Source of the DNA: Curvibacter sp. PAE-UM
GTDB taxonomy: Bacteria > Pseudomonadota > Gammaproteobacteria > Burkholderiales > Burkholderiaceae_C
Assembly (NCBI RefSeq): GCF_001432305.1
Contig: NZ_KQ483358.1
Location: forward strand, 2,849,710 to 2,913,709
Length of the DNA stretch: 64,000 nucleotides
Direction of reading: 5' to 3'
A program made the position numbers and the translations under genes. Positions 31,917 to 40,952 of this stretch are shown here, one piece after another. Position 1 is the first letter of the stretch, and the number at the start of each line of letters is the position of its first letter. Below the pieces are notes generated by a model. That model was not told the origin of the DNA. It saw only the letters and a list, made by a program, of their open reading frames with translations, and did not search any database.

Positions 31917-34352
<2,436 letters not shown>

Positions 34353-34375
34353 TTGTTGTCTTCAGGCTCTTGAGG

Positions 34376-34399
34376 AAGCCCGCTTCGTGCGGGCTTTTT
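34376..34399 (+). terminator. rpoD terminator
   Basis: AAGCCCGC (34376-34383), loop TTCGT, GCGGGCTT (34389-34396), then T-rich tract to 34399 and beyond (TTTTTCTTTTTC). A strong intrinsic terminator 24 bp after the rpoD stop. Confidence 0.9.
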
Positions 34400-34433
34400 C
34401 TTTTTCTTTTTTCTGCGCTGTGTTGTTGCTTGC

Positions 34434-34941
34434 GTGGCAGGCCGGGTCTCGCCCCGGCGGGCGAGGTACTTTTCTTTGCTTCGCCAAAGAAAAGTACCCA
34501 AAAGAAAGGCGAGCCGGATTCGTCGACCCGCTACGCGGGCACGCTGCGTTGCTCGGGACCGGCGGGAAGCGCAGAAACTCGGCTAGCGCCTCAAACATCT
34601 GCGCTTCTTTTTCCGCCACTCCCTGCGCTACTCGCCTCCTCATGACGGCGGGAGGAACCGGGTACGAATACCAAGACAACAAGGACGCGCCATGGCGCGT
34701 CCTTGTGGGGTCCGGCTGTTTGATCCCTATGCCGTGTGGCAGGGCTGAGCAGCGCAGCAGCGGGCGGATCAGGGCGGGCGTTGTCCGAGCGCAGCGAGTT
34801 TAGCCCGACCCCGCCCGATGCGAGCAGCGCAAGGAACCCCGCAGGGGCCCTGACTTCGGCTCGCCTTCTCTTTGCTTACTTTCTCTTGGCGAAGCAAGAG
34901 AAAGTGAGTCGCCCGCCGGGGCGAGACCCGGCAAAGCCACG
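34434..34941. repeat. Giant palindromic repeat, copy A
   Basis: A roughly 500-bp non-coding element between rpoD and dnaE (34353-35015 holds no gene). Ends are inverted: GCCGGGTCTCGCCCCGGC from 34441 and its complement ending at 34932. Each arm then carries a hairpin (14-bp stem 34465-34478/34485-34498 with loop CTTCGC, and 34875-34888/34895-34908). A 28-bp perfect palindrome (34679-34706) sits at the centre, and the two halves are diverged inverted copies of each other. The 137 bp 34731-34867 match copy B (39962-40098) with 4 differences. Short ORFs inside look spurious. Confidence 0.85.
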
Positions 34942-35000
34942 ACTACCAAAACGCCAAGACAAAGAGGGGAAACCTTGAGAGTGGCAGTCCGCCAGCCTAC

Positions 35001-35006
35001 TAAAAT
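35001..35006 (+). promoter_or_regulatory. dnaE -10 element (CTAAAATC type)
   Basis: TAAAAT ends 9 bp before the dnaE ATG; TTGAGA (34975-34980) lies upstream with a long, 20-bp spacer. The same CTAAAATC string precedes the TrhO-like gene (40201) and trmB (52689). If used, the dnaE leader would be only a few bases long. Confidence 0.4.
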
Positions 35007-35015
35007 CAAATCCAT

Positions 35016-38000
35016 ATGTTCACCCACCTGCGCCTGCACACCGAGTTCTCCGTCGTCGACGGCACCGTCCGCATCGAGGACATCGTCAAGGCCGCCGCCA
35101 GTGATGGCCAGCCGGCGCTGGCCATCACCGACCTGAACAACCTCTTTGGCGCCATCAAGTTCTACAAGGAAGCGCGCGGCAAGGGTGTCAAGCCTTTGAT
35201 CGGCGTCGAGATCATGCTGGAGGGCCTGGGCCAGGACCCGCTGGCCACCTCGCGCCTGCTACTGCTGGTGCAGAACAAGCAGGGTTACCTCAACCTTTCC
35301 GAAATCATCGCGCGGGCCTGGACCAGCAACGTGGTGAAGGCCCAGGCCGTGGTCAAGCTGGCCTGGCTGAAAGAATTGCACGAGGGGCTGATCGCGCTCT
35401 CCGGCGCGCAAAGTGGCGCCGTGGGCCAGGCCCTGGTGCAGGGCGATGCCGAGCGTGCCCATGAGGCTGCACTGCAGCTGTCCACCGTGTTCCCGCATCG
35501 TTACTACCTGGAACTGCAGCGCGCCGGGCGATCGGACGACGAGGCCCATGTGACGGCCGCCGTGCAATTGGCCGCGCGCATGAAGCTGCCCGTGGTGGCC
35601 ACGCACCCGGTGCAGTTCGCCACACCCGACGACTACGAAGCGCACGAGGCACGCGTCTGCATCTCCGAAGGCGAGATCCTGGGCAACCCGCGCCGGGTGC
35701 GCAAGTTCACGCGCGAGCAGTACTTCAAGAACGCCCAGCAGATGCAGGCCCTGTTTGCCGACCTGCCCAGCGCGGTGGCCAACACCCTGGAGATCGCCAA
35801 GCGCTGCAACCTGACCCTGGTGCTGGGCAAACCACAACTGCCCAACTTCCCCATCCCCGGCGGCCTGAGCATCGAGGAATACTTCCGCCAGGTTTCGTTT
35901 GAGGGCCTGGAAGAACGCCTCGCGCATCTGTACCCCGACGCAGCCAGGCGCGATACCGAACGGCCGCGCTACGTGGAGCGCCTGGAGTTCGAGATCAACA
36001 CCATCCTGAAGATGGGTTTCCCGGGTTACTTCCTCATCGTGGGCGATTTCATCCAGTGGGCCAAGGCCAACGGCTGCCCGGTCGGGCCGGGCCGTGGCTC
36101 GGGCGCCGGCTCGCTGGTGGCCTATGCGCTCAAGATCACCGACCTGGACCCGCTGGAATACAAGCTGCTGTTCGAGCGTTTCCTGAACCCGGAACGTGTC
36201 TCGATGCCGGACTTCGACATCGACTTCTGCCAGGCCAACCGCGACCGCGTGATCGACTACGTCAAGGACAAGTACGGCAAGGAGGCGGTCAGCCAGATCG
36301 CCACCTTCGGCACCATGGCCGCGCGTGCCGCCATCCGCGACGTGGGCCGCGTGCTCGACATGAGCTACACCTTCTGCGATGGCATCTCCAAGCTCATCCC
36401 CAACAAGCCGGGCCAGCACATCACCATTGCCGACGCCATCCAGGCCGAGCCCATCCTGGCCGAACGGCTGGAGAAGGAAGACGAGGTCAAGACCCTGCTG
36501 GCGCTGGCCCAGAAGCTCGAAGGCCTGACACGCAACGTCGGCATGCACGCCGGCGGCGTGCTGATCGCGCCGGGCAAGCTGACCGACTTCTGCCCGCTCT
36601 ACCAGCAGCCTGGCAGCGACGCGGCCGTGAGCCAGTACGACAAGGACGACGTGGAGGCCGTGGGCCTGGTGAAGTTCGACTTCCTGGGCCTGGCCACGCT
36701 GACCATCCTGGAGATTGCGCGCGAGTTCATCATGGCGCGCCACCCGGGCCAGGAGCACTTCGCCTTCGAGAACATCCCGCTCAACGACAAGCCCACCTAC
36801 CACCTGTTCCAGGAAGGCAAGACCGAAGCGGTGTTCCAGTTTGAAAGCCGCGGCATGCAGGGCATGCTGCGCGACGCCAAGCCCACGCGCCTGGAAGACC
36901 TGATCGCACTCAACGCCCTGTACCGCCCGGGCCCCATGGACCTGATCCCCAGTTTCGTGGCACGTAAGCATGGAAGGGAAGAAGTCGCGTACCCGCACCC
37001 GGCGGTGGCCGAGATGCTCAGCGAGACCTACGGCATCATGGTCTACCAGGAGCAGGTGATGCAGACCGCGCAGATCCTGGGCGGCTACTCGCTGGGCGGC
37101 GCCGACCTCTTGCGCCGCGCCATGGGCAAGAAGAAGGCCGAGGAGATGGCCGAGCACCGGGAGAAATTCCGCGTCGGCGCGCTCAAGACCCACAACATTC
37201 CCCAGGACAAGGCCGACGAAGTCTTCGACCTGATGGAGAAGTTCGCCGGCTACGGCTTCAACAAGTCACACGCCGCCGCCTACTCCCTGCTGGCCTACCA
37301 CACAGCCTGGCTCAAGGTGCATTACACGGCCGAGTTCTTCTGCGCCAACATGACCGTGGAAATGGACGACACCGACAAGCTGAAGGTGTTGTTCGAGGAT
37401 GCCCTCAAGATGGGCCTGAGCTTCGAGTCACCCGACGTCAACCGCGGCCATTACCGCTTCGAGCCGATCTCGGACAAGGCCATCCGCTACGGCCTGGGTG
37501 CCGTCAAGGGTACGGGCCAGCAGGCCATCGAAGCCATCGTGAAAGCCCGCGAAGAAGGCGGCCCGTTCACCAGCCTGTACGACTTCTGCGTGCGCGTGGA
37601 TCGCACACGCCTGAACAAACGCAGCATCGAGGCGCTGATCAAGGCGGGGGCTTTCGACTCCCTGCAGCTCAACCGTGCGTCTCTGGTTGCATCGATTGAT
37701 CGCGCCTTCGACTTCGCCAATGCCACCGCCGCCAACGTCAACCAGGGCGGCCTGTTCGACCTGGGAGACGACAGCCATGGCGCCAGCACGCAGGAGCCGG
37801 AGCTGGTGGAAGCCATGCCTTGGGGCGTGAAGGAACGCCTCACGAACGAGAAGACCGCCGTGGGTTTCTACCTCTCGGGTCATCTGTTCGACGAGGTCTC
37901 CATGGAAGTACGCCGCTTCGCCAAGCGCGAACTGGCCGACCTGATCGACACACGCGAGCCGCAGCTGCTGGTCGGCATCGTCAGCGATTTCCGTGTCATC

Positions 38001-38489
38001 AACGGCCAGCGCGGCAAGCTGGCCCTCTTCAAGCTCGACGACAAGACGGCCGTGCTCGACGCCCGCGTAGACGAGGCGCTGATGAACGCCAACCGCAACC
38101 TGCTCAAGGACGATGAGCTCATCATCGTCATGGCCAAGGTCATGCCCGATCGTTTTTCAGGCGGCCTGCAGCTCAACATCAACCAGGTCTGGAGCCTGGA
38201 GGCCGCGCGCTGCCGCTTCGGCAAGTACCTTCGCGTGGCCGTCAACGGCCGCGCCCCCGACGTGCAGCGTCTGGTGGCCGAACATCCGCCCAAGCGCGAG
38301 ATGACCGAGCAGGGCGAACTGCTGCGCGGCCTGGGTGTGCGCCTGACCCTGCGCCGTCAGGGCCCGGGGCTGGGCGCTGCGGCCGAGTTGCAACTGGGCG
38401 AAGACGCGAAGTTCTATCCCAGTGATGCGGCGTTGGCGGGGTGGATGGCGCAGGCGGATCAGGGTAAGGCTGTCATCGTTTACGACTGA
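35016..38489 (+). CDS. dnaE: DNA polymerase III alpha subunit
   Basis: Replicative polymerase of the C family. 1157 aa, essentially E. coli length (1160). N-terminal PHP domain (HLRLHTEFSVVDG, 4-16), palm with the catalytic PDFDIDFCQ (about 398-406) and the third Asp in the following segment, tandem helix-hairpin-helix, OB domain (about 980-1070) and the tau-binding C-terminus. No classic Shine-Dalgarno is evident before the ATG. Separated from rnhB, its usual neighbour, and flanked by two large palindromic repeats. Confidence 0.97.
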   Translation: MFTHLRLHTEFSVVDGTVRIEDIVKAAASDGQPALAITDLNNLFGAIKFYKEARGKGVKPLIGVEIMLEGLGQDPLATSRLLLLVQNKQGYLNLSEIIARAWTSNVVKAQAVVKLAWLKELHEGLIALSGAQSGAVGQALVQGDAERAHEAALQLSTVFPHRYYLELQRAGRSDDEAHVTAAVQLAARMKLPVVATHPVQFATPDDYEAHEARVCISEGEILGNPRRVRKFTREQYFKNAQQMQALFADLPSAVANTLEIAKRCNLTLVLGKPQLPNFPIPGGLSIEEYFRQVSFEGLEERLAHLYPDAARRDTERPRYVERLEFEINTILKMGFPGYFLIVGDFIQWAKANGCPVGPGRGSGAGSLVAYALKITDLDPLEYKLLFERFLNPERVSMPDFDIDFCQANRDRVIDYVKDKYGKEAVSQIATFGTMAARAAIRDVGRVLDMSYTFCDGISKLIPNKPGQHITIADAIQAEPILAERLEKEDEVKTLLALAQKLEGLTRNVGMHAGGVLIAPGKLTDFCPLYQQPGSDAAVSQYDKDDVEAVGLVKFDFLGLATLTILEIAREFIMARHPGQEHFAFENIPLNDKPTYHLFQEGKTEAVFQFESRGMQGMLRDAKPTRLEDLIALNALYRPGPMDLIPSFVARKHGREEVAYPHPAVAEMLSETYGIMVYQEQVMQTAQILGGYSLGGADLLRRAMGKKKAEEMAEHREKFRVGALKTHNIPQDKADEVFDLMEKFAGYGFNKSHAAAYSLLAYHTAWLKVHYTAEFFCANMTVEMDDTDKLKVLFEDALKMGLSFESPDVNRGHYRFEPISDKAIRYGLGAVKGTGQQAIEAIVKAREEGGPFTSLYDFCVRVDRTRLNKRSIEALIKAGAFDSLQLNRASLVASIDRAFDFANATAANVNQGGLFDLGDDSHGASTQEPELVEAMPWGVKERLTNEKTAVGFYLSGHLFDEVSMEVRRFAKRELADLIDTREPQLLVGIVSDFRVINGQRGKLALFKLDDKTAVLDARVDEALMNANRNLLKDDELIIVMAKVMPDRFSGGLQLNINQVWSLEAARCRFGKYLRVAVNGRAPDVQRLVAEHPPKREMTEQGELLRGLGVRLTLRRQGPGLGAAAELQLGEDAKFYPSDAALAGWMAQADQGKAVIVYD

Positions 38490-38581
38490 GCTCTCTGCTC
38501 TGCCTGGCCGGCAGGGATGCTTTGCCGGGTCTCGCCCCGGCGGGCGACTCACTTTCTCTTGCTTCGCCAAGAGAAAGTAAG

Positions 38582-39708
38582 GGCGGATTCAAATACCAAG
38601 TGCAACGATGGGCTGGATATCGACATTCTGCTTGAAGCAATCTTCGAAGAGCACCTCGGCTGGAGTCCTGAACCCAAGGGTCTTGCGAGGGCGGGTATTG
38701 AGACTCCAGGCAATGTGATCGAGCTGGCGCTGGCTATAGACGCTCAGATCCGTCCCCTTGGGCAGGTATTGCCTGATCAGCCCATTGGTGTTCTCGTTGA
38801 TTCCGCGCTGCCAGGGGCTGTGCGGGTCCGCAAAGTAGATCTTCAATCCTGTGCTCTCGGCCAGCTTTTTGTGCAACGCCATCTCCTTGCCCTGGTCGTA
38901 CGTCAAGGTCTGGCGTAATGCATCGTCCAGAGGGCTGAAGGCCTGTTCGTAGCCGCGCAGGGCTTCTTCTGCCGTGGCACCATCCATCTTCACCAGCATG
39001 ACGAACAAGGTCTTGCGGCACACCAGGGTGCCCACAGCCGATTGGTTCCTGGAACCCTTGATCAGATCGCCTTCCCAGTGACCCGGTAGTAATCGATCGC
39101 TGGCTTCGGGGGGGCGCAGATGAATGCTGACGATGTCCTGTAGGGCGCCGCGCCGCCCAGTGCCTCGTGCCTGGGGACGGCGTGCCCCACGCCCTTGGCG
39201 CAGCAGGCTGACCAGCTGTCGACGCAGCTCCCCTCGCGGGGCCGCGTAAATGGCGGTGTAGATCGTCTCGTGGGAAGCTTGCAATTGAGGTTGCCCGGGA
39301 TGCTCGCGTTTGAGTGTGCCCGCAATCTGTTCAGGCGACCAGCTCTGGCACAGCAGGCCATGAACCCTTTGCCACAAGGCACCGTCCGGATGAAGTTTTC
39401 GGGTTGGTCGACAAGCACGACGGAGGCGACGGGCACGCACGCCAGCACGTACTGCGTTGTAGCCGCCCGCAACTCGGGGACGGCCCATAGGCCCTAACTC
39501 AGATTCCTGCTTGTAGCCATTTCGCCGCAGTTCGCGACTGATGGTGCTCGGACAACGGCCAAGCGCCCGAGCAATGCCGCGGACGCTGCAATCCTGAAAC
39601 TTCATGGCCATGATCGCGCCACGTTCCTCGGCGCTCAGGTGGGTGTAGGTGGCTTTCATGCAACGGGCTCCTTCTGGAAGTGTGTTGCACTTCAGCTTTG
39701 AATCCGCC
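38582..39708 (-). mobile_element. IS30-family insertion sequence, complete
   Basis: 1127 bp. Terminal inverted repeats GGCGGATTCAAA, five non-matching bases, then AGTGCAAC at the left; the same pattern inverted at the right. Flanked by direct AAG (38579-38581 and 39709-39711), a 3-bp target duplication. The uninterrupted target is present in copy A, which confirms the ends. One transposase gene on the minus strand, apparently intact, so the element may be active. Confidence 0.93.
38589..39659 (-). CDS. IS30-family transposase
   Basis: 356 aa from the ATG at 39659. N-terminal helix-turn-helix (AEERGAIMAMKFQDCSVRGI), then the DDE core: Asp198 in HWEGDLIKG, Asp255 in TYDQGKEM and Glu289 in GINENTNGLIRQYLPKGTD, with the 33-residue D-E spacing of the IS30 family. 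No frameshift is seen. A TTG 17 codons upstream would start outside the element and is not used here. Confidence 0.94.
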   Translation of the reverse strand: MKATYTHLSAEERGAIMAMKFQDCSVRGIARALGRCPSTISRELRRNGYKQESELGPMGRPRVAGGYNAVRAGVRARRLRRACRPTRKLHPDGALWQRVHGLLCQSWSPEQIAGTLKREHPGQPQLQASHETIYTAIYAAPRGELRRQLVSLLRQGRGARRPQARGTGRRGALQDIVSIHLRPPEASDRLLPGHWEGDLIKGSRNQSAVGTLVCRKTLFVMLVKMDGATAEEALRGYEQAFSPLDDALRQTLTYDQGKEMALHKKLAESTGLKIYFADPHSPWQRGINENTNGLIRQYLPKGTDLSVYSQRQLDHIAWSLNTRPRKTLGFRTPAEVLFEDCFKQNVDIQPIVALGI

Positions 39709-40201
39709 AAGCAAAGAGAAGGCGAGCCGGGTGCGTCGTCCCTGCGCTACGCTCCGGGCACGCTGCGTTGCTCGGCCAGGGCGGGAAGTGCAGAAACTCG
39801 CCCTGCGGGCTCAGACATCTGCACTTCCTTTTCCACCCTGGCCTGCGCTACTCGCCTCCGCACACGGCAGAGGTGAACCGGATACCAAAACCAAAGACCA
39901 CAAGGGCGCGCCATGGCGCGTCCTTGTTTGGCTGTTTTGTCTTCGGCTGTTGGTTCCCCATGCCGTGTGGCAGGGCTGAGCAGCGCAGCAGCGGGCGGTT
40001 CAGGGCGGGCGTTGTCTGAGCGCAGCGAGTTTAGCCCGACCCCGCCCGGTGCGAGCAGCGCAAGGTACCCCGCAGGGGCCCTGACTTCGGCTCGCCTTTC
40101 TTTTGGGTACTTTGCTTTGGCGAAGCAAAGAAAAGTACCTCGCCTGCCGGGGCGAGACCCGGCTTGCCGCATAAACGATCACTCAAGCGAAAAGAGAAAA
40201 C

Positions 40202-40214: not shown

Positions 40215-40952
40215 GTGAACGACATCCTCAATATCTCCGCCTACAAATTCGTCCCCCTCCCCGACGCCCATGCGCTGCGCGATCGCCTGCACGAACAGGC
40301 CGTCGCCCTGGACCTCAAAGGCACGGTGCTGCTGGCCGAGGAAGGCATCAACCTCTTTCTGGCCGGCCCGGGCGCGGCGGTGCGCGAATTCGTGGCGAAG
40401 CTGCGCCAGGATCCGCGCCTGGCCGATCTGGTGCCGAAAGAGAGCTGGTCGGCCCAGGTGCCGTTTCGCAAGCTACTGGTCAAGGTCAAGCGCGAGATCA
40501 TCCGCATGAACCACCCCACCATCCGGCCAGCCGCGGGGCGTGCACCGGCCGTGCCGGCCGCCACCGTGCGGCGCTGGCTGGACCAGGGGCATGACGATGA
40601 CGGACGCCCGGTGGTGACCCTGGACACGCGTAATGCCTTCGAGATCGACCACGGCACGTTCGAAGGCGCGATCGACTGGCGCATCCAAAAATTCTCCGAT
40701 TTCCCGCAGGCGCTCCAGGCGCACCAGGCCGAGCTCCAGGGCAAGACGGTGGTGAGCTTTTGTACCGGCGGCATCCGCTGCGAAAAAGCGGCCATCTACA
40801 TGCAGGAGAGCGGACTGGAACACGTCTACCAGCTCGAAGGCGGCATCCTCAAGTACTTCGAGGAGTCCGGAGGGGCGCATTTTCGGGGTGAATGCTTCGT
40901 ATTCGACGAACGCGAGGCGTTGGGAGCCGATCTTCAGGCCAGACGCAACTGA
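40215..40952 (+). CDS. Rhodanese-domain tRNA uridine hydroxylase-like protein
   Basis: 245 aa. N-terminal acylphosphatase-like domain (about 1-95), rhodanese domain from about 110, with the active-site loop [15 protein letters not shown] that is characteristic of the TrhO (YceA) family, which makes 5-hydroxyuridine at tRNA position 34. E. coli TrhO is about 350 aa; here the protein stops right after ECFVFDERE, so the C-terminal cysteine-rich region is missing. The GTG at 40215 was chosen because the N-terminus then matches the family; a TTG further upstream (40164) lies in the repeat. Confidence 0.8.

Follow-up and report, generated by a model that had tools for sequence, protein, structure and literature searches.

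Palindromic intergenic elements flanking dnaE in Curvibacter and their possible role as recombination handles around a gene slot

We analysed a 64,000-nucleotide stretch of the Curvibacter sp. PAE-UM genome (contig NZ_KQ483358.1, positions 2,849,710 to 2,913,709; here termed the window), in which two copies of a palindromic element of about 500 bp flank dnaE. They belong to a family with 17 members in this 3.63-Mb genome, far above chance; all 34 ends were found and aligned. Each element consists of two hairpin-rich arms set tail to tail, with outer ends facing away, and in cargo-free elements the arms meet at a 28-bp palindrome. The inner part of an arm is of one of at least three types (A, B and C). 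The best explanation that we can offer, tentatively and at odds just short of even (probability about 0.48), is that the palindromic arms are old recombination handles around an exchangeable gene slot.

Under this explanation the arms would serve as homology handles, and the interior would be swapped by RecA-type recombination, either with arms carried on incoming DNA or among the dispersed copies. The element would be a protected slot in which one gene, complete with promoter and terminator, could be replaced while its neighbours stayed untouched. The cargo gene's terminator would be the central palindrome, left behind in empty copies, and the genes would first have entered as integron cassettes.

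Genes held between the arms

Cargo other than an insertion sequence (IS) lies between two arms in three of the 17 copies in this genome: 125 + 184 amino acids (aa) at the FAD-oxidase site, 296 aa at the site between queE and rarA, and about 124 aa at fdhD. The FAD-oxidase site (PF02913) was the most informative. Among 16 relatives examined there, referred to by handles such as G010, four have clear cargo, as the window genome does: G010 and G018 (280 + 161 aa each), G020 (144 aa) and G013 (163 aa). The cargo-bearing copies of these five species share arm A, a hairpin, a promoter-like TTGTCA-17-TATAGT and a leader running to CACGTT; G006 shares them too as far as its contig runs. Similarity ends at ...ATATCACGTT, and what follows are four unrelated inserts (by blastn), those of G010 and G018 being alike. 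On the far side the common palindrome GACAAGGGCACGCGATAGCGTGCCCTTGTC, or a close version of it, stands just downstream of the cargo gene. As for the other relatives, the G006 contig ends within the leader, the interior is short in G023, cargo is absent from G016, the G014 element is collapsed, and eight have no detected arm.

A gradient of identity between G010 and G018 at this site points to exchange. Identity is 0.89 in the flanking gene, 0.95 in the left arm, 0.95 in the leader and 0.996 (1363/1369) in the cargo, then 0.97 in the inner right part, 0.91 in the outer right arm and 0.90 downstream. Bases outside codons share in the peak, so it is most simply read as a recent transfer of the interior, with exchange points that would lie in the arms or the leader.

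The leader at the FAD-oxidase site is similar to the attI region of the integron that this genome carries, and a crossover would fall at G-TTRRRY. That chromosomal integron has an integrase gene (1643185-1644129; 456 bits), an attI-like site and one 78-bp attC-like stretch, the latter two found by motif search. An integrase exceeded the family cut-off in two of 26 genus genomes, and none lies at a cargo site. Degenerate, weaker attI-like modules occur at fdhD of G006 and at rpoD of G004, each with one detected arm; in the latter locus (L241) the arm and attI-like leader are followed by a cargo region broken by an IS3-like insertion (by eye). Since the FAD-oxidase slot starts with an attI-like module and weaker ones stand beside a single arm at these two sites, we suggest that the genes may first have entered as cassettes, and the modules are candidates for working attI sites. 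At the FAD-oxidase site, inspection of the cargo ends by eye showed no complete attC; a RYYYAAC half-motif is present in two of the four insert types.

Inserts were also seen in relatives at the other two sites. Fifteen regions were examined at queE-rarA (queE assigned by eye with a radical-SAM match, rarA with PF12002): in G018 a gene for an Mrr-type enzyme (PF04471) adjoins a lone left arm, and in G014 a lone right arm has next to it a small gene, GIY-YIG-like by eye but without a Pfam match. Cargo-free elements occupy the site in G009, G010, G013 and G016; G023 has a right arm only, the G006 contig examined a remnant, and seven have no detected arm. In two of the 13 regions examined at fdhD (PF02634), an inserted gene adjoins a right arm and no detected left one: it codes for a peptidase M74 in G006 and, by eye, for an RCC1-like protein in G009. 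There G018 has a cargo-free element, G014 a shortened one, and G013 and G023 a partial right end; six have no detected arm, and the contig of G005 is too short. Genes between two arms are thus found in the three own copies, at the FAD-oxidase site, and at four further loci (L083, L104, L107 and L136), and at the one-armed sites carriage between arms is only suggested.

Cargo is poorer in GC (0.47-0.58) than the eight loci that hold it (0.61-0.66), and two of ten cargo proteins scanned reached the cut-off of a Pfam family. Seven proteins given to PADLOC yielded one clear defence match, the Mrr-like enzyme; the L107 protein had a match labelled pAgo (E 3e-12). A terminator-like palindrome follows the gene at the FAD-oxidase site, at the own fdhD site, at queE-rarA of G018 and G014, and at fdhD of G006 and G009.

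Several observations weigh against the gene-slot explanation. Cargo is a minority state (8 of 78 end pairs, see below). The inserts in relatives outside the FAD-oxidase site have one detected arm only (queE-rarA of G014 and G018, fdhD of G006 and G009, rpoD of G004), so we hold the explanation less firmly. The identity peak confined to cargo was seen in one species pair only, and crossovers inside the arms are inferred rather than seen directly. At least six armless loci carry attI-like modules, a lower bound since only two candidates were scored per genome (two of the six are close to a contig start); the arms are therefore not needed for cassette carriage. At one of these loci, L277, two small genes (200 and 187 aa) come after the module. 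The palindrome downstream of the gene is not a constant feature: it lies on both sides of the gene in the own queE-rarA element (L041b) and before the attI-like module in G004, and no palindrome of this sequence was found at L083, L104, L107 or L136. A terminator scan did not call the central palindrome of copy 1. Finally, two cargo proteins were sought elsewhere in the family, in samples that excluded G010 and G018: one was found in none of 249 other genomes, the other in one of 250 (63% identical), there without an arm.

A stronger form of the gene-slot explanation would make the family a transposase-free gene-exchange system, with dispersed, site-stable cradles whose arms, shared by many species, act as universal homology handles, and with one accessory gene set between a resident promoter plus orphan attI-like entry and a resident terminator. 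We regard this form as rather unlikely.

The two elements beside dnaE and their wider family

The pair flanking dnaE had been noticed in an earlier inspection of the window (the sequence-only reading). The pair is real, and the account of copy 1 was borne out: an imperfect palindrome with inverted 18-bp GCCGGGTCTCGCCCCGGC ends, a hairpin with a 14-bp stem inside each end (the right one with one mismatch), and a 28-bp centre that is perfect in copy 1 and has one mismatched pair in copy 2. Folded as a single strand, copy 1 (34434-34941) reaches -313 kcal/mol, against a mean of -218 in 100 shuffles (z = -14.9). Three points needed correction. The left end of copy 2, which had been missed, is at 38524-38541; this copy measures 1640 bp, with its left end far from ~39700, because an IS30-family element (38582-39708), likewise overlooked earlier, splits its left arm, and would be about 510 bp without the IS. 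The 137-bp match between the copies (34731-34867 versus 39962-40098) has four differences exactly as reported, but lies in the right arm rather than in a core. The statement that no gene lies inside holds for copy 1; copy 2 contains the IS30 transposase gene, and some other copies contain other genes. Coordinates are collected in Table 1.

Table 1. Features of the two elements and their neighbours (window coordinates), and integron-related loci elsewhere
Feature	Coordinates	Strand	Remark
Copy 1, palindromic element without cargo, complete	34441-34932	none	between rpoD and dnaE
Copy 1 arm type A, outer to inner	34441-34678	+	
Copy 1 left terminal motif	34441-34464		GCCGGGTCTCGCCCCGGC + GGGCGA; covarying hairpin TCGCCC/GGGCGA
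Copy 1 left-arm hairpin 2	34465-34498		14-bp stem
Copy 1 central palindrome	34679-34706		28 bp, terminator-like stem-loop
Copy 1 arm type B, outer to inner on - strand	34707-34932	-	
Copy 1 right-arm hairpin 2	34875-34908		
Copy 2, element split by IS	38524-40163		between dnaE and UPF0176/rhodanese gene
Copy 2 outer arm A	38524-38581	+	left terminus and hairpin 2, up to IS insertion point
IS30-family insertion sequence	38582-39708	-	1127 bp, AAG both sides
IS30-family transposase gene	38589-39659	-	356 aa
Copy 2 inner arm A	39712-39899	+	
Copy 2 central palindrome	39900-39927		one mismatched pair
Copy 2 arm type B	39928-40163	-	includes hairpin 2 and right terminus (40146-40163)
rpoD	31917-34352	+	neighbour of copy 1
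Terminator-like hairpin after rpoD	34372-34400	+	just outside copy 1
dnaE	35016-38489	+	neighbour of both copies
UPF0176/rhodanese gene	40215-40952	+	neighbour of copy 2
Integron locus	L276:7168-9865 = G000:C1:1643167-1645864		integrase, attI-like site, attC-like stretch
Armless attI-like leader modules	L277:2792-2890 (G000:C1:928291-928389), L278, L279, L280, L281, L283		

Structure alone predicts that the central palindrome would act as a terminator, and the earlier label of composite terminator would fit the element in that structural sense. A rival explanation is a bidirectional terminator or insulator, kept for gene regulation and with no part in gene exchange. At nearly all sites in this genome at least one gene 3' end adjoins the element (as judged by a crude open reading frame picker), the stem-loops are GC-rich, and positions 34300-35050 hold four terminator-like sites against 0.9 expected. 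One of these four, however, is rpoD's own, outside the element, so that rpoD already has a terminator before copy 1 begins; another element separates two divergent genes, one a radical-SAM gene read as queE, the other of MgsA/RarA type; and losses and collapses are common. We consider a purely regulatory role somewhat unlikely.

The terminal hairpins covary. Across three end helices in the 34 aligned ends (17 distinct), both sides were changed in 41 cells, compared with 16.9 (sd 2.9) after shuffling; none of 500 shuffles scored as high, and controls with slid partners gave at most 16 double changes. A wider set of ends had the loop CGGC in 193 of 201 distinct ends, with stem pairing at 97–98% for positions 3-5 from the loop (CG, GC, TA and AT variants), 82% at position 1 and 47% at position 7. 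Many arms of this wider set were chosen by a pattern that fixes one stem, and the shuffle test in the 34 ends is the better one because it is free of that choice. At hairpin 2 the loop CTTCGC is by far the commonest while the stem varies, in ends from many genera, and other loops exist. One element in this genome contains a run of N (L035 near 2995; G000:C1:1901990) within what are apparently tandem half-elements, and may be masked or misassembled.

The source of the covariation would be either selection on the hairpin or template switching in imperfect palindromes. Were it the latter, the switching would perfect the stems and the elements would be inert debris kept alike by gene conversion. 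Large palindromes are hot spots for template switching, collapse is common here, and arm types are mixed between sites. The preponderance of CTTCGC over varying stems is mild evidence to the contrary, and we judge this account unlikely.

The family is common in Comamonadaceae and Rhodocyclales. An exact-pattern scan of named genomes returned at least 118 stretches, confirming an earlier guess that similar elements abound in Comamonadaceae; genera among the matches listed include Variovorax, Polaromonas, Rhodoferax, Hydrogenophaga, Acidovorax, Hylemonella, Curvibacter, Rubrivivax, Zoogloea, Denitromonas and others. Of 60 genomes searched, the own genome among them, 29 matched. The loci read contain 78 end pairs in plus-then-minus order (two loci being present twice under two names). 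Spans of 269-732 bp account for 66 of these, so the copies do not occur only as part of a longer coding element; 12 exceed 1 kb, four of them with IS30 alone and eight with other open reading frames.

Outside this range matches were few. Neither the phages searched nor E. coli, the latter queried with a 76-bp hairpin region, gave a match, and the exact end pattern had none in viral contigs. Twelve plasmid records matched: in 11 the match was to a short hairpin, and the twelfth is on a 2.5-Mb replicon. No Rfam family reached its gathering score in the stretches searched; weak matches to STnc320 and mir-4679 merely reflect hairpins and were discarded. A palindrome of ~420 bp in Pasteurella multocida, in the interval between dapF and a DUF484 gene (L172:2999-3420), has the same outward-hairpin layout (CTTTTCTTTG...CAAAGAAAAG then AAAAGAAAGGCGACCC) and is possibly a distant relative. 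Single hairpins of the same sequence type, with no second arm by eye, occur in Burkholderia (L174:3000-3070) and Aeromonas (L173:3000-3060). In Variovorax paradoxus VAI-C an element interior (L175:3000-3700) contains a further palindrome (CCCTCTCCC...GGGAGAGGG) and repeated GCTTCGCTCGG units.

Site stability, rearrangement breakpoints and the IS30 element

In the related species G018, ten of ten loci lie at sites also occupied in the window genome: FAD-oxidase, rpoD, queE-rarA, fdhD, L031, L032, L034/L041a, L035, L036 and L044. These loci were found with an arm-A search, which B- or C-only loci could escape. Some are reduced, L031 being a collapsed remnant and the queE-rarA site having no detected right arm. 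At the FAD-oxidase site of G014 and at the rpoD site of G002, G017 and G025, joined terminal hairpins alone remain (by eye). The shared sites and collapsed remnants therefore indicate that copies keep their sites when inherited and shrink through internal deletion. We take the copies to be old, non-coding and chromosomal, and to have stopped jumping on the time scale of the genus.

Two marks of transposition named in the sequence-only reading, target duplications and a partner transposase with matching ends, did not turn up in the loci read. Among 73 end pairs (two loci counted twice), none had a direct repeat of 5–10 bp at equal offsets of 0-13 outside the ends; direct repeats of 4 bp at one offset occurred in two pairs, versus 0.2 expected. 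No partner transposase with matching ends was present among the loci read. On either side, A is scarce in the flank on the strand that runs into the element; this apparent composition signal was dropped, as gene ends and starts would give the same bias.

A giant REPIN-like element would be built of inverted hairpin repeats that were once spread, via single-stranded DNA, by a Y1-type transposase such as the transposases associated with repetitive extragenic palindromic (REP) sequences (RAYTs). Two inverted hairpin units are indeed present, with covarying stems, and the lack of target duplication is what Y1 systems are expected to show. The genome has one Y1-family gene (L176, G000:C1:109334-109660). 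RAYTs usually adjoin their own REPs, but this single copy has no arm in its 3.3-kb locus (this genome alone was checked), and REP units are much shorter than the present elements. Such an origin seems distinctly improbable.

A classical miniature inverted-repeat transposable element (MITE), that is, a non-autonomous copy of a cut-and-paste transposon mobilised in trans, had been proposed in the sequence-only reading and now draws weak support: short, mostly non-coding units with terminal inverted repeats in many dispersed copies fit it, as do the rare 4-bp repeats, but positions shared between species, the missing 5–10-bp duplications, the lack of any longer copy with a matching transposase in the loci read, and the phage, viral-contig and plasmid results above make it very unlikely.

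The earlier suggestion of a chromosome-structure element gained support in one sense, in that rearrangement breakpoints fall on the elements. One element in G018 joins the right flank of the window genome's site L034 to the right flank of its site L041a; at the reciprocal left-left junction, in G018 and G010, 64-75 bp separate the flanks, with no arm match. A further element, in G013, connects the left flanks of L034 and L042. The order of the window genome is retained in G009 and G014, and the G016 contig ends at the element. Such junctions are the products expected from inversion between inverted dispersed copies. The pair of arm types at a given site also varies with the species: at rpoD, for instance, it is A/B in the window genome, B/A in G010 and G024, and A/C in G013 and G018.

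The IS in copy 2 belongs to a specialist. All five copies of this IS30-family element in the genome lie in palindromic elements and share one insertion point, immediately internal to hairpin 2, with both orientations represented and a 3-bp duplication (CAC or AAG). Its transposase (300 residues scanned) matches NF033563 (IS30 family) with 255.5 bits against a cut-off of 80. The chance of such placement is about 3e-9 under a rough model that confines insertion to intergenic DNA, assumed to be 12% of the genome.

Relation to known systems and significance

Tobes and Pareja (2006, PMC1525189) define a type 1 association, in which every copy of an IS targeting REP sequences or bacterial interspersed mosaic elements (BIMEs) occupies one repeat position, and report a 3-bp duplication for ISPsy8. 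The IS30 placement is of this type 1 form. Shared with the systems that they describe are dispersed intergenic palindromes, an IS at one position and a 3-bp duplication; the present elements differ in being about 500 bp with two long arms rather than short units, and in being able to hold genes. The IS also differs in family, being IS30 here, with IS3, IS110, IS4, IS256 and IS5 listed there.

A MITE has been reported in Polaromonas JS666 (Mattes 2008, as cited in PMC10969869), which carries the present family. Prokaryotic MITEs likewise have inverted ends and many non-coding copies, in contrast to which our family lacks target duplications and, in the loci read, a partner transposase, and is stable in its sites. 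The JS666 MITE may, going by that secondhand citation, be the same element; in the literature searched we did not find our element described, with the reservation that Mattes 2008 may hold an earlier description. The betaproteobacterial repeat element (BRE), as described in Hot 2011 (PMC3110155), is a GC-rich repeat of about 90 bp, often tandem, chromosomal and mostly intergenic, in Polaromonas, Delftia, Acidovorax and Bordetella. By description, which is how the two were compared, our family is likewise a chromosomal, mostly intergenic, GC-rich repeat; the ~90-bp length and frequent tandem arrangement of BRE set it apart. With integron cassettes and attI the elements share lone orphan genes of low GC that follow a conserved promoter and an attI-like site with G-TTRRRY at its end, but there is no integrase beside the slot, no complete attC was seen at the cargo end, and each slot takes one insert, with palindromic arms outside.

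We place the element among palindromic intergenic repeats, where it is distinctive in keeping its sites, being targeted by an IS of its own, marking rearrangement breakpoints and, in certain copies, forming an exchangeable-gene slot. Large intergenic palindromes in Burkholderiales are easily overlooked. The genes inside elements or beside one remaining arm include those for an Mrr-type restriction enzyme, a murein peptidase and several proteins without known family. If the arms are shared homology handles, this would account for small orphan genes taking one another's place in a single slot with no adjacent transposase. The IS30 element, with all five of its copies in this genome inside elements, offers a handle on how the elements are recognised. 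If the gene-slot explanation is true, the elements would link palindromic repeats, integron-like entry sites and chromosome inversions, which are usually studied apart.

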